A stretch of DNA of 38,763 nucleotides from the NCBI RefSeq assembly GCF_030145185.1, contig NZ_JAQYWB010000056.1, positions 1 to 38,763 of the forward strand. The letters run 5' to 3'. Both the position numbers and the translations under genes were made by a program. The notes beneath the pieces are model-generated. The model made no database searches and was not told where the DNA came from. It worked only from the letters and a program-made list of their open reading frames with translations. Below, piece after piece: positions 97 to 9,999 of this stretch (the first letter of the stretch is position 1; the number at the start of each line of letters is the position of its first letter). This DNA is from Desulfoluna sp. (GTDB lineage: Bacteria; Desulfobacterota; Desulfobacteria; Desulfobacterales; Desulfolunaceae).

Positions 97-423
97 TTAA
101 TATTTGCCCTTGAGGCCCTTACCCACTCCAAATGGAAAGGAGCCCATATTATCAAGATGCTTTTGTTTTCTGTGAGTGTACGTATCCTTAAAAATTAAAG
201 CGTAATCAATAATGATAAGTATCAGAACCAAAATGATTAAAATCTGCCAAACACAAAAAGCCAATAATTGGTTTTCAGAAAAAAACTTGGACAGAGAGCT
301 CATTGGTAATGCTTTTGTCAGCTTATCTGAGGCTATAGGTGTCCCAAGCAACGCAAGTAGCGACCACTGAATAACTTTAGTCGGGAACATTCTTCTTAGA
401 ATTGAGACTTCTTCTTTATTCAT
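97..423 (-). CDS. Small hypothetical membrane protein (cassette-borne)
   Basis: The 108-residue product is not recognised. It has one convincing membrane segment at about residues 54-76 (rich in I, L and V), a weaker hydrophobic stretch at 18-33, and a basic C-terminal tail, so it is probably an inner-membrane protein. Its ATG lies only about 8 bases after the end of the attC-like site at 431-492, the spacing usual for integron gene cassettes. The gene is AT-rich, unlike the sequence beyond 2.8 kb. No attC is seen after its stop; a palindromic hairpin lies there instead. The function is unknown. Confidence 0.6.
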   Translation of the reverse strand: MNKEEVSILRRMFPTKVIQWSLLALLGTPIASDKLTKALPMSSLSKFFSENQLLAFCVWQILIILVLILIIIDYALIFKDTYTHRKQKHLDNMGSFPFGVGKGLKGKY

Positions 424-430
424 ATTCCCT

Positions 431-492
431 CATAACGACGCTTTTCAGCGGGCGTGGCTTTTTGCGCTCCGCTGAAAAAGCCTTGTTAGCTG
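431..492 (-). other. attC: Integron attC-like recombination site
   Basis: On the minus strand this 62-bp site starts with CAGCTAAC and ends with CGTTATG. Between them are imperfect inverted arms (AAGGCTTTTTCAGCGG and CCGCTGAAAAGCGTC) that differ by an extra T, and a short variable loop. This is the layout of a folded attC: outer R''/R' boxes, inner L''/L' boxes, an extrahelical base and a terminal loop. It lies directly after the stop of the SEC-C gene and before the ATG of the next gene. TCAGCTAAC at its start is the exact complement of GTTAGCTGA at 1981-1989, the other end of the SEC-C cassette. That complementarity is expected of a cassette. Structural scoring was not run. Confidence 0.7.
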
Positions 493-493
493 A

Positions 494-1945
494 TTATAAA
501 CAACATTTTTTATATTTTTTGCCAGAGCCACAAGGACAAGGAGAATTGCGACCAATTTTGAGTTTTTTGCTTTTGCTTTTTGGCTTAGGGAACTCTGTAG
601 AAGTTTGTTTGTATTGCTTCATATTGCTTGTACTAAAAAAATTCCAATCTTCATTTAATTTTTCATAATATTGTTTTTGCTCAATAGGCCAATCTGAACA
701 ATCCATTAGAATAAAATCTTCTGAATTTGATTCTGAAAACTTCGGAGCATCAATTGCAATACCGACGATTTTTGTAAAATTTTGAAATTTATTTTTTGCC
801 GAACCACAAGCAATTTCAAGGAGTGTACGCCTTTTTTCTCGATATACTTCGTAAGAGTCTTTATTATCAGGTATGTGAAGCTGCATAAAAACATATGCAG
901 TACTTTTTATAAATGATGGCATAAAGGATACTTTTCTTGAAAGTTGAGATCCATCATTTGGAAAAGTTTTAATCGATTCAATAATTTTATCTGAAAGTGA
1001 ACGGCGGTGAAATCTAGGTTCTTTTGCCATTTCATGAATGGCACTTTTGCCGTTAAGGGGGCTTTCACCGAGTATGGTACCTTCTAAAGTGAAATTACTG
1101 GTTCTTTGAATAATTTCGTCCCAGAAATATGAATTCCTATCAGCTCTTTTTTTTCTAAGATATACTTGGCTTTTACAGAATGCGTACCATTCCCCTTCAC
1201 TGATGAATATTCCATTGACCTTTTTATCGAGTGTGCCTATATAATGTTGATTTTTGGAATCATCGAAGTTCGAGTAATAATGTGCTAATAAATCTTCTTC
1301 CCCACAATATGAAATAATTGTGTACTTTTCTAAAGCTGATTCTTTTGAAGTTAAATAGGCCGTAAAATCATAATAAGTATCTAATTCGGATAATATCATT
1401 TCTAAATTCTGACTATCAAAAACATGTACTGGCTTATCTCTCTCTAATTCTAAGAAAAAAGGGATCGTTGCTCTAGTGCGTCTATCACCGTAAGCAATTG
1501 CTAAGATACCATATACATTGTCTCTTGATGCATTCTTACATGCTTCTTTTGCACCATGAGCAACAATAATTTTATGAAAAACAAATTCATTACTATCAAT
1601 GTATAGAGGAAAAGGTTTGGAGAGATCTTTGTCTAAAAATATACCTCTACCACTTTTTATGTATCTTTCCGCTCCATGAGCAGTTTTAATTTGGGCTGTA
1701 ATAGATTTTTTTACCCATCTTTTCCATGCTACTTCAGAGTCTTGAATTCCCTTTTTCAGAGAAAGATTTTCTCGGTCAAAAAAAATAAAGACATGTTTAT
1801 CAAAGACAGCAATAAGATCGCACAACTCATCTTTATTTTCATTAAATGGGTTGGGGTATGACCATAATTTTAAAAAAGTACGATCACACAAATCAGATAA
1901 TAGTTTTTCTGTTTCAGTAAAACCTTCAGATTTTTGAATATTCAT
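494..1945 (-). CDS. SEC-C motif protein of unknown function (cassette-borne)
   Basis: This 483-residue protein ends in a classic SEC-C zinc-binding motif (about residues 464-483: RNSPCPCGSGKKYKKCC), as at the C-terminus of SecA and of many otherwise unrelated proteins. The remaining ~460 residues are not recognised; they are charged and lack membrane segments, so a soluble protein is likely. The ATG at 1945 has only a weak upstream ribosome site. The gene fills a segment bounded by GTTAGCTGA at 1981-1989 and the attC at 431-492, so the whole unit looks like one integron cassette. It is AT-rich compared with the rest of the window. SEC-C supports metal binding, possibly protein or ribosome contact, but does not give a function. 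Confidence 0.75.
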   Translation of the reverse strand: MNIQKSEGFTETEKLLSDLCDRTFLKLWSYPNPFNENKDELCDLIAVFDKHVFIFFDRENLSLKKGIQDSEVAWKRWVKKSITAQIKTAHGAERYIKSGRGIFLDKDLSKPFPLYIDSNEFVFHKIIVAHGAKEACKNASRDNVYGILAIAYGDRRTRATIPFFLELERDKPVHVFDSQNLEMILSELDTYYDFTAYLTSKESALEKYTIISYCGEEDLLAHYYSNFDDSKNQHYIGTLDKKVNGIFISEGEWYAFCKSQVYLRKKRADRNSYFWDEIIQRTSNFTLEGTILGESPLNGKSAIHEMAKEPRFHRRSLSDKIIESIKTFPNDGSQLSRKVSFMPSFIKSTAYVFMQLHIPDNKDSYEVYREKRRTLLEIACGSAKNKFQNFTKIVGIAIDAPKFSESNSEDFILMDCSDWPIEQKQYYEKLNEDWNFFSTSNMKQYKQTSTEFPKPKSKSKKLKIGRNSPCPCGSGKKYKKCCL

Positions 1946-1989: not shown

Positions 1990-2000
1990 AATTATTAGCG

Positions 2001-2240
2001 GACAATTCCGTCCCATATCCCCCTCTCAGGGGTAAATACAGACAGAATTGTCGCATATATTCCCTTCATTTTATGGAATATGCGATAAAAGTGTCCCGTA
2101 TTCCATTTTTATTAGACATTTCTGCCTGATAACACCCTCTCAAGGATAAAAACAGACATTTTTGTCCTCTATTCCGCTTATGGCAAGAATACGGGACAAG
2201 AACGTCCTATATTCCCCGTGTTTCGCGTTTTTTCAGACAC
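2001..2240. repeat. Array of ~40-bp degenerate double-palindrome units
   Basis: Units start near 2001, 2041, 2084, 2115, 2154 and 2195, with a last partial one near 2235. Each has GACA-N4/5-GTC (a small palindrome) followed by a TATTCC-like block, and in several units a partner such as GGAATA or GGGTAA that can close a second hairpin. Spacing is 31-43 bp, mostly 39-41. At a larger scale 2001-2104 and 2115-2215 align as two imperfect direct copies. The units are too diverged for a CRISPR. They could be iterated protein-binding sites, remains of an attI region or a decayed repeat element. Confidence 0.6.
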
Positions 2241-7258: not shown

Positions 7259-9214
7259 ATGAAACAAACGCAGACCCTTTTCATCCTTTTTATCCTGCTT
7301 CTCACCGCCCTTCCCCTTCATGCTGATGAGGCGTGGAAAACCAGGGCCTATGTCCATGCGGCTAAAGCTGAAATCACCGAAGCGGTGTTGCCGCCCGAGC
7401 TTTTCATGGCGGTGGAGACGATGCAGGGGCGGGATCGGATTGATCTGGCCCTTGCGGGGCCGGACGGAAGGCAGCGGTCCTTTGAGCTGTTCTGGGGAGA
7501 CCCCTCGCGGGTGGTCCGGTTCAGCCTGAAGCCAGAGCGGATGGAGCTGACCGATGAGGGGGAGTTTATCTGGGAAGGAAAAGCCCCCAAGCCTGAAATT
7601 GAGACTCTTTATGTGACCATCAGAGATCAAAAATTTGTGGGGCAGGTGGATGTGGAGGCAAAAAGCGGCAATGCGTGGGCCGTGCTGGCCAAAAACGCGG
7701 CGCTTTTCAGGTCCGGGGGGCAAACGCGGGCTGAAATAGCCATCAAAGCGGGGCAGTATCAAAAAATACGGCTGAGGTTCAGAAGCTTTGATCGGGCATT
7801 CAAGATGAAAGTCCTGCCCGTAGACAGGGTAACAGCGTCAGGAAAAACAACGGGCCGTGATGATGCCAAAAAGACCATTACCCCAGAATTTCATACCGCC
7901 GAATCCGGAGAAATCACCGAGATTCGAACCCTTCTTCCCGGCTCCGGCCTTTTTATCGATACGGTAAACATGATCACCGAAACCCAGTTCCAGGGCCACT
8001 GGCGCGTCGGGCGGGAGATTATTCAAAACGGCGAGCGCACCTTTGTGCCGGTTCAAAACGGCTCCATCTCTACCGTCACCGCCAAGGGCAACGCGTTGTC
8101 CTTTAAGATCAATAAAAAATGGCTGGGGAAATCCCTGGTCATCAAGCTCGATCCACAGGGAAAGTATCTGGGAACCCCCACCGCCTTTACCGTGGGCCTT
8201 TTTCTCCCCCGCATCGTCTTCTCCGCCGACAAACCCGGCAAGTACATGGCCGTTACCGGCACCGGAGAAAAGGAAAAAATCCTCTCAAGACCCGGCTCGA
8301 ATACCAGAAAAATCGACCAGTCCCTCTTCTTCTCCAAGCCCGAGATCAACCCCAACCTCACCGAGCTCGCCCTCACCGACAAATACCAACTCAAAGGCGG
8401 CCCCTTTAAAAAGGATGGCTTCACCTGGACCGCTGCCATTCCCATCGACACCCCCGGATACTACCGGCTCTCCTTTCCCGTGGAGGCGAGTCTTGCCCCC
8501 AACCGGACAGGGGTTCGGCTCGCACAGGATAAGACGCAAATCCCCTTCTTCATGGATCGCACGGAAAACGTCACACTCCCTCTCACCCCGGCCCCCGAGT
8601 ACGACGAAACGCTCAACCAGACCACCTGGCCCCTCACCCTTCCCCAGGCCTCTCCCTGGTGGGTCTCCCTCAACCTGAGCACCACGGGGATCTTCAAACG
8701 CACCGTCACCCTCCAGGTCCCCAAGCCCGGGCAGATGGGCTGGGAAACCAGGCGCGTGCTATCCTGGGAAAACCCCACAGACGAAAAAACCACCCTTAAA
8801 ATTCCCCTCTCCCACTTCCCCAAAGACCAGGACCAACTGCGCATCGTTATCAACCACAACGACAACCAACCCCTCTCCATCAACACCATCGAAGCCGTCT
8901 ACACCGCCCCGGCCATCTGCTTCCTCGCCCATGCCCCCGGCACCCTCACCCTCAACGGCGGACACCCCACCCTTACATCGCCCACCTATGACCTCTCCCT
9001 CGTCCAAACAAAACTCCTGGAAACCCTTCCCACCCCCATCCAGGCCGAAATCATCACGGAGGTCTCAAAACCCTTCTGGTCCGGCGACTGGATGAAACAA
9101 TTCCAGGCCAAAGGCTGGGGTCTCTACGCAGCCCTGGGACTCGTGGCGGTGGTCTTGCTCGGAATCATCGGAAAAATGCTGCCGGCTGCAGAAAAAGAGG
9201 GGGATAAGAGATAA
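7259..9214 (+). CDS. DUF3999 family exported, membrane-anchored protein
   Basis: From ATG 7259, which follows TTTGGAGTTCAT, this encodes 651 residues. The frame is open further upstream to 7106, but that part is repeat sequence. Residues 1-22 (MKQTQTLFILFILLLTALPL, then HADEA) form a signal peptide. A long, mostly beta-like soluble part follows, and one membrane helix near the C-terminus (about residues 625-643) ends in a charged tail. This is the usual plan of DUF3999: exported, with a C-terminal anchor. The gene follows DUF2339 in the same direction. The family has no known reaction; a shared envelope role with DUF2339 is inference. The original gap between the two genes has probably been expanded by repeats. 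Confidence 0.8.
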   Translation: MKQTQTLFILFILLLTALPLHADEAWKTRAYVHAAKAEITEAVLPPELFMAVETMQGRDRIDLALAGPDGRQRSFELFWGDPSRVVRFSLKPERMELTDEGEFIWEGKAPKPEIETLYVTIRDQKFVGQVDVEAKSGNAWAVLAKNAALFRSGGQTRAEIAIKAGQYQKIRLRFRSFDRAFKMKVLPVDRVTASGKTTGRDDAKKTITPEFHTAESGEITEIRTLLPGSGLFIDTVNMITETQFQGHWRVGREIIQNGERTFVPVQNGSISTVTAKGNALSFKINKKWLGKSLVIKLDPQGKYLGTPTAFTVGLFLPRIVFSADKPGKYMAVTGTGEKEKILSRPGSNTRKIDQSLFFSKPEINPNLTELALTDKYQLKGGPFKKDGFTWTAAIPIDTPGYYRLSFPVEASLAPNRTGVRLAQDKTQIPFFMDRTENVTLPLTPAPEYDETLNQTTWPLTLPQASPWWVSLNLSTTGIFKRTVTLQVPKPGQMGWETRRVLSWENPTDEKTTLKIPLSHFPKDQDQLRIVINHNDNQPLSINTIEAVYTAPAICFLAHAPGTLTLNGGHPTLTSPTYDLSLVQTKLLETLPTPIQAEIITEVSKPFWSGDWMKQFQAKGWGLYAALGLVAVVLLGIIGKMLPAAEKEGDKR

Positions 9215-9238
9215 GGGATAAGGGTAAGGACAGGGGCA

Positions 9239-9394
9239 GGCCTCCGGCGGCAAGGTGGAGCCACCTTGAAAGCAGGTTTGCGAATGCGCATCGGGGGTCG
9301 TCACTCCGGGCTGAAATGCGTCCGCATTCGCGTGGAGTGCGTGGAAACGCACAGTGCGTCGCAAGTGCAGGATCTGCCGGTGATTCTGTATGGG
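9239..9394 (+). repeat. Gene-bracketing repeat, long copy 4
   Basis: Full-length copy starting 25 bases after the DUF3999 stop, with the GCCTCC end toward the gene. It is nearly identical to the next copy, from which it is offset by 186 bp. Confidence 0.9.
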
Positions 9395-9424
9395 CGAAGG
9401 GAGGAAGGGATAAGGAAAAGGGCA

Positions 9425-9580
9425 GGCCTCCGGCGGCAAGGTGGGGCCACCTTGAAAGCAGGTTTGCGAATGCGCATCGGGGGTCGTCACTCCGGGCTGA
9501 AATGCGTCCGCATTCGCGTGGAGTGCGTGGAAACGCACAGTGCGTCGCAAGTGCAGGATCTGCCGGTGCTTCTGTATGGG
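9425..9580 (+). repeat. Gene-bracketing repeat, long copy 5 (tandem)
   Basis: Direct tandem duplicate of 9239-9394, with only a few differences (GGTGGGGCC for GGTGGAGCC, GGTGCTTC for GGTGATTC). The near identity implies recent duplication of the 186-bp unit. Confidence 0.9.
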
Positions 9581-9600
9581 TGAAGGGAGAGGAAAAGCGG

Positions 9601-9645
9601 GCCTCCGGCGGCGAGGTGGGCCACCTCGAAAGCGGGTTTGCGAAG
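9601..9645 (+). repeat. Gene-bracketing repeat, short copy 6
   Basis: GCCTCCGGCGGCGAGGTGGG plus CCACCTCGAAAGCGGGTTTGCG, then divergence. It completes a run of three head-to-tail copies after DUF3999. Confidence 0.85.
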
Positions 9646-9857: not shown

Positions 9858-9980
9858 CGCCCGGCCTTTGTCTTGTCCACGCCGGCCTGTATCTTTCCCA
9901 CGCCGGCCTGTATCTTTCCCACACCGTCTTCGTCTTTCCCACACCGGCCTGTATCTTTCCCACGCCGTCTTCGTCTTTCC
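9858..9980. repeat. 20/21-bp minisatellite with two alternating unit types
   Basis: Five clear units follow one diverged unit: type A CACGCCGGCCTGTATCTTTCC (21 bp; 9878, 9899, 9940) and type B CACRCCGTCTTCGTCTTTCC (20 bp; 9920, 9961), in the order A A B A B. The last unit runs directly into a CCCGCGAAGGCGGG hairpin, so the array seems to have grown from the flank of that element. Confidence 0.85.
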
Positions 9981-9999
9981 CGCGAAGGCGGGAACCCAT
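9976..9999. repeat. REP-like hairpin CCCGC-GAAG-GCGGG
   Basis: TTTCCCGCGAAGGCGGGAA is a short palindrome of a type that is very widely dispersed in proteobacterial genomes. It abuts the minisatellite. Confidence 0.55.

Follow-up and report, generated by a model that had tools for sequence, protein, structure and literature searches.

A palindrome array at the end of a gene cassette

What is an array of symmetric repeats doing at the very end of a gene cassette in Desulfoluna sp., and which protein, if any, does it serve? The array lies in a contig of 38,763 nucleotides (NCBI RefSeq NZ_JAQYWB010000056.1, assembly GCF_030145185.1), which is called the window here. On the minus strand it runs from position 2216 down to 1991 and stops 2 bp before the junction ..CTAATAATTG|TTAGCTG.. 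with the cassette. The repeats noticed earlier at this place were confirmed, and six dyad-symmetric sites were identified in 1991–2216. They are, all on the minus strand, palindrome c (1991–2022, centre 2006.5), b (2031–2062, centre 2046.5) and a (2074–2105, centre 2089.5), followed by c' (2105–2136, centre 2120.5), b' (2145–2176, centre 2160.5) and a' (2185–2216, centre 2200.5), with centre-to-centre spacings of 40, 43, 31, 40 and 40 bp. Each site is one palindrome of 14+4+14 bp, which takes the form GGAATACG-GGACA-N4-TGTCC-CGTATTCC in relatives. The GACA at positions 4 to 1 from the central gap hardly varies, and the outer arm is rich in A and T. The unit had been described as GACA-N4/5-GTC followed by a TATTCC hairpin half. 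Both motifs are present, but they are parts of one long palindrome with TATTCC as its outer arm, not two separate elements. Of the six to seven units counted at first, six hold; the apparent "seventh" near 2230 is a single half-site, TGTCY-RAAAA, which by eye recurs in relatives.

Six-site arrays consist of a three-site module in two tandem copies. In the window, module 1 (1993–2104, minus strand) and module 2 (2109–2217, minus strand) share 76 identities over 115 alignment columns (0 of 200 mononucleotide shuffles), and no shuffle among 200 aligned as well in the related arrays G002:C27, G005:C19 and G002:C8 either.

The three-site dyad statistic (12-bp arms, 4-bp gap, 40-bp step) reached 25 on 1901–2300, versus 18.8 ± 1.19 in dinucleotide shuffles, of which 2 of 3000 reached 25. 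The same score was attained by 3 of 384 overlapping 400-bp tiles of the window, all three overlapping the array. When the period was left free (24–61 bp), autocorrelation selected 40 bp (z 4.5, 0 of 200 shuffles family-wise). Periodicity beyond that of shuffled sequence was found by both measures, and the predicted period of about 40 bp holds as the best one, although individual steps of 43 and 31 bp are also present. The "four helical turns" proposed for it are only approximate, because 40 bp corresponds to 3.8 turns at 10.5 bp per turn. Within 1900–2400, a repeat finder reported no direct repeat family and one inverted pair inside the array. Tandem Repeats Finder missed the array, its sole call being a 30-bp piece of period 14 at the array edge.

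The array is an integron attI site

By its position and by the cut that it has in common with related loci, the array is an integron attI site. The aligned cuts of 20 genus loci place the recombination cut G/TT at 1988–1989 on the minus strand (..AATTG, then TTAGC), with G 1989 as the last attI base and T 1988 as the first cassette base. The sequence CTAATAATTG/TTAG at this cut reads as a near-palindrome, whose halves are candidate inverted L and R half-sites. Beyond the cut, the first cassette carries an ORF of 483 aa with a C-terminal SEC-C motif (494–1945, minus strand) and is closed by an attC-like site (430–490, minus strand). The bottom strand of 424–496 folds at −16.1 kcal/mol (z −3.8; 1 of 200 shuffles equal); attC was judged by folding in the window and only by eye at the other genus loci. 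The second cassette ORF (97–423, minus strand) encodes 108 aa without a Pfam family.

On the other side of the array, about 350 bp from the cut, a relic of an intI leader and gene start lies at 2343–2446 on the plus strand, divergent from the cassettes. When aligned to the leader and first codons of the intact intI of a sister species (G002:C27), it scored 56 versus 21.9 ± 3.1 in shuffles (0 of 100), and tblastn on the relic by itself was weak (E 0.48). In the window genome (G000, 5.8 Mb), the only traces of type-A integrase that were found are relics, and an insert splits the type-B gene, so no intact integron integrase was found in this assembly, which is 97% complete. The insert is about 150 bp long, has inverted ends and lies between ORFs of 112 aa and 233 aa (G000:C42; about 2110–2256 of locus L007). 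The attI of the window is an orphan with decaying arms, which could work only with an integrase supplied in trans.

Two other repeats were observed in the window. A repeat of about 186 bp is present in 2.4 tandem copies at 9213–9644 and by eye shares a stretch with 2580–2680, just beyond the intI relic; it is probably a dispersed repeat family of the window genome. A short tandem array with units of about 20 bp (TCTTTCCCACACCGG..) lies at 9861–9981.

Related sites in the genus share the plan and the cut

Four of the six genus genomes (G000, G001, G002 and G005) carry at least 21 such attI sites in two sequence families, and no array was found in G003 and G004. Family I has 15 loci and family II five, which use other letters in the same plan; these 20 loci were used in the comparisons. 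A 16th family-I locus, G002:C25, was found by two pattern searches and enters none of the statistics. Since it escaped BLAST, the genus count is a lower bound. This locus is an orphan attI (G002:C25:470707–470811; about 908–1012 of L237) with three palindromes ending ..ATAATCATTG/TTCTGC. Genus attI hold three to six palindromes in full sites and one or two in the most reduced, with up to 12 alternately inverted half-sites per array.

The cuts are near-identical: 19 of the 20 loci read G/TT (in G005:C8 one base further on), and G005:C10 reads G/CT. Behind them are 18 different first-cassette starts, the alike pairs being G005:C19 with G005:C20 and G005:C8 with G002:C29. The latter two (about 5300 in G005:C8, L029; about 245100 in G002:C29, L018) are different attI loci of two species that begin with the same first cassette, which suggests cassette movement between attI sites.

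When integrases were sought near the arrays, an intact divergent intI was found to adjoin a six-site array at 2 of the 20 loci, G002:C27 and G005:C19. In these intact integrons the palindrome centres lie 18, 58, 99, 130, 170 and 210 bp from the cut. In the sequence available, the other 18 loci have no intact intI: six retain a recognisable gene-start piece and five the leader only (one of them on 1 of 100 shuffles), and no significant trace remains at seven. A scan for promoters gave one promoter-like site in G002:C27, versus 1.7 expected. The original suggestion of multiple protein-binding sites, perhaps an unusual attI, is favoured by the intI start relic, by the common cut with differing cassettes and by the two intact intI genes beside six-site arrays.

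The sequence of the array was confined to the genus in our searches, and its layout is wider. Beyond the genus, among 291 genomes of the order, the family-I signature had one 2-mismatch match in each of nine genomes, versus 17 genomes with control matches; by eye, no array preceded the match in seven of the nine (L189 and L197 were left out). GGACA palindromes numbered 32 in 80 IntI loci outside the genus, versus 26–38 for control motifs, so the letters of the array do not travel outside the genus. Viral contigs contained neither the exact unit patterns nor relatives of the SEC-C cassette protein.

An iteron array, a mobile-element end or a plain minisatellite, with no role in recombination, could also produce fixed-period repeats and a tandem module duplication. 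However, the 20 aligned genus copies and the 21st all end at a cassette-type cut, the sequence has no match among 72,556 plasmid and 50,697 phage records, and the register of 18 bp before the cut recurs with unrelated letters in a cyanobacterial attI (L127). No support was seen in these comparisons for the iteron-like control region that had been proposed as the other option, and no copy was noticed away from cassettes or beside a rep gene. We give such an origin hardly any chance.

The proximal palindrome and the L half-site

The 3' arm of palindrome c runs into the L half-site at the cut; this L arm, ATTATTAGCGGACA, occupies 1991–2004 on the minus strand. The centre of palindrome c is 18 bp from the cut. 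Unrelated attI also tend to have a dyad at this distance, and the proximal palindrome is for this reason read, by analogy, as DR1 plus L integrase half-sites, with the remaining palindromes as an extended accessory array. Among 60 attI regions outside the genus, 8 have a dyad with at least 7 of 9 pairs at 18 bp from GTTR, versus 1 of 60 at control sites. Dyads also peak at 30 bp from GTTR (6 loci versus 0 in the control), and the profile has a weak peak at −3 (mean 3.47 versus 3.10). These 60 were taken from 80 loci, the others having too little DNA before intI or no GTTR. The offsets would suit the known L/R pair and the DR1-L pair of attI1.

Between the two families, the L arm undergoes the same change as the other arms. 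Family I typically has ATTATTAGTGGACA as the L half-site and GGTATTATGGGACA as another arm, and family II has AGTATTAGTGTGCA and GGTTTTATGGCGCG; read by eye, GGACA becomes GTGCA/GCGCA in both arms. In 40 loci chosen for a recognisable cut, the L-arm 9-mer recurred upstream in its own attI with a mean of 7.4 of 9 matches, versus 6.1 of 9 in attI of other classes. Control 9-mers taken at these loci reached 6.5 (the L arm exceeded them by only 0.85), and the recurrence was flat or negative in 3 of 11 classes (ATGGAAA +0.19, L235 −0.1, L115 −0.8).

On the IntI tree (94 rows, 19 labelled), the arm classes need 3 changes, which is the minimum, versus a mean of 8.4 when labels were shuffled (0 of 200). 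The tree combines 67 of 80 non-genus loci, 24 of 29 loci of the order and three genus loci; L215 (which repeats L115), L219, L229, L232 and L236 were left out, and L081 and L209, copies of one another, were both retained. The arm labels of L034, L035 and L036 were set by hand, L036 having one exact ATGGAAA, below the cut of three. The GAATTAATTC arm class does not form one clade (2 changes; a count as low in 47 of 500 shuffles), and the TACACC class spans records of Methylobacter, Glaciimonas, Nitrosomonas, Thiobacillus and Halothiobacillus. Because attI and intI are linked, an arm class that tracks IntI phylogeny is partly expected whatever binds. Type-A and type-B integrases, which have different arms, coexist within one genus and also within one genome (G000, where they are relics and a split gene), which argues against a single host factor.

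The type-B attI of the genus have no dyad ladder. Several AAACATGG boxes are found in direct orientation in the type-B attI of L036, L038, L044 and L046, and a like box occurs in inverted pairs in L227, L231 and L233. These three, type-B-like integrons of the order, carry ATGGAAA arms, with pairs about 32 bp apart in L227. The attI of L110 (Thiobacillus sp. 0-1251) holds GGACA-type palindromes, and its integrase is in another clade. Upstream of its intI is a perfect palindrome, GATTATCCGACA-TGTCCGATAATC, much like the family-I arms, which lies upstream of a different proximal palindrome.

Integrase sites, operators or hairpins

We consider it probable that the array forms the accessory region of an integron attI, whose palindromes would be loaded cooperatively by IntI for cassette capture. 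Palindromes are kept at many of the 18 loci without intact intI, which means either that intI was lost recently or that another agent preserves the sites. In an alternative reading, a dedicated dimeric regulator, different from IntI, would bind the palindromes as operators and control the promoters of the cassettes and of the divergent intI. The inverted pairs, whose 4-bp centre is mostly AT-rich, do resemble the operators of dimers, the array fills the gap between intI and the cassettes, and palindromes persist in G001 (six arrays), where no type-A integrase was found and only type-B integrases scored above the family cut-off. LexA of delta-Proteobacteria and Cyanobacteria recognises divergent motifs according to excerpts of PMC3108266, so the control of intI in these groups is open. 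Against such a regulator, the arm and the L half-site at the cut have their sequence in common and change together in most classes. The motif GGACANNNNTGTCC is not enriched genome-wide either, with 6, 12, 11 and 14 sites in G000, G005, G001 and G002 (attI included) versus 11, 8, 9 and 16 for the reversed core motif, and no regulator gene common to the loci was noticed on informal inspection. LexA (SOS) boxes were rejected as a candidate on the same lack of enrichment and on the LexA DNA-binding domain PF01726, which had no match in the four carrier genomes, versus matches in 10 of 14 control genomes. Taken together, a dedicated operator array appears unlikely.

The arms could also be kept to pair mutually, as hairpins in single-stranded DNA or in a cassette leader RNA. 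The folding check proposed with the array showed that it does fold well as RNA (z −5.8), but the long stems join arms of different units, and the intact array of G002:C27 folds less well (z −2.2) than the decayed one. Some covariation was detected at site a, where 10 of 1000 shuffles reach the observed pairing. In contrast, sites c, b, b' and a' pair with their own partner no better than with that of another locus (619, 898, 1000 and 1000 of 1000 shuffles as good). Site c' was left out of this test, as were the window and G002:C8 at one site each, G002:C29 and G005:C20 at another site, and sites judged absent. Although the strand can fold, the arms lack covariation in 4 of 5 site classes, and hairpins as the reason for the array are therefore very unlikely.

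Binding by the integrase remains the reading that we prefer, and from sequence comparison we infer that IntI is the binding protein, that its loading is cooperative and that cassette capture is the purpose. IntI would cut G/TT between the L and R half-sites. The proximal palindrome would consist of the L half-site and, opposite it, an inverted accessory half-site that resembles DR1 of attI1, and further inverted pairs of the same half-site would follow at steps of about 40 bp, up to 12 half-sites. IntI protomers would load cooperatively on these inverted pairs in a fixed register, and the resulting nucleoprotein complex would capture the folded single-stranded attC and favour attI x attC over other pairings. 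The complex may also cover the intI and cassette promoters.

The 40-bp ladder outside the genus

When the free-period test was applied to 90 non-genus attI regions (one fewer than the non-genus loci of the tree, dropped for length), 39–41 bp was the best and a significant period in five: the cyanobacterial records L127 and L156, and L223, L225 and L226 of the same order. L223 has two sites only, L226 is AT-rich, and the register to the cut is not fixed for L225 and L226. In all, 12 of the 90 loci had a best period reached by at most 2 of 200 shuffles, seven of them outside 39–41 bp: 25 bp (L129 and L222, the latter with a masked run), 27 bp (L105, L131), 28 bp (L211), 31 bp (L085) and 32 bp (L227). 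The dyads of L127 lie at −18.5, −59.5, −99.5 and −139.5, which is the register of the window genus with unrelated arms. An earlier dyad-period scan, which flagged 7 of 70 non-genus regions, was discarded; most of these were one strong palindrome or GC-rich sequence (L148). In L218 (G007, same family), a perfect hairpin with 12-bp arms, GTGCATACAGGC..GCCTGTATGCAC, was observed upstream of intI, between intI and the cassettes.

All five loci with a period of 39–41 bp fall in the 28-row part of the IntI tree that contains the genus, whose branch support of 94/91 is just under the mark of the tool. With the genus included, 7 of 28 rows have this period versus 0 of 66 elsewhere (Fisher 1.2e-4, or 1.3e-3 with near-copies collapsed), a test that corrects only crudely for relatedness. 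A broader reading, which we put forward tentatively as somewhat short of probable, is that a superclade of integron integrases from this order and the cyanobacteria uses ladder-type attI at −18 + n x 40 bp. The letters would turn over with each integrase lineage under a conserved register and symmetry, and capture would proceed through a multi-integrase filament of fixed pitch.

Comparison with known attI sites

Beyond class 1 integrons there is no good definition of attI sites, and work continues on the way in which IntI brings together a double-stranded attI and a single-stranded attC. Three to six regular palindromes, in a register that reappears in a distant phylum, would make accessory integrase sites testable by stepwise deletion, and the palindrome ladder offers a signature for finding attI in genomes, including orphan attI without intI. 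A literature search found no multi-palindrome attI in titles or the starts of abstracts, most subscription journals being outside its scope, and the excerpts of PMC8876359 and PMC3108266 mention no such array. Archaeal attI are described only as semi-conserved in the excerpted text of PMC9668308.

The attI1 of class 1 integrons is alike in lying between a divergent intI and the cassettes, in its G/TT cut, in having extra half-sites upstream and probably in its L/R pair at the cut. IntI1 binds L, R, DR1 and DR2 of attI1, as stated in passages of PMC12901181 and PMC3518468. According to passages of PMC8946536, the two additional sites DR1 and DR2 promote attI1 x attC, possibly as a topological filter, and attIA of V. 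cholerae is without them. Whereas attI1 has two direct repeats, the genus arrays have alternately inverted pairs in a 40-bp ladder with up to 12 half-sites. Read by eye, an attI1 oligo (PMC2668188) contains a short dyad, GGGC-AGTC-GCCC, about 16 bp from the cut.

Chromosomal integrons of beta- and gamma-proteobacteria (L088, L094, L101, L114) have a TATACACC-N4-GGTGTATA-like palindrome, also 18 bp from the cut, and a further direct copy about 23 bp upstream, a spacing taken by eye. Unlike the genus arrays, they carry a single palindrome, and no 40-bp ladder was seen in them. The cyanobacterial attI of L127 (filamentous CCP2) and L156 (Leptolyngbya Prado105) have a ladder of 40 or 41 bp as the genus arrays do, but with unrelated arms and central gaps mostly of 1 bp; the dyads of L156 are weak, and only its 41-bp period is clear. 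If the reading of a ladder-type superclade is true, the two-repeat attI1 would be a reduced form of such a site.
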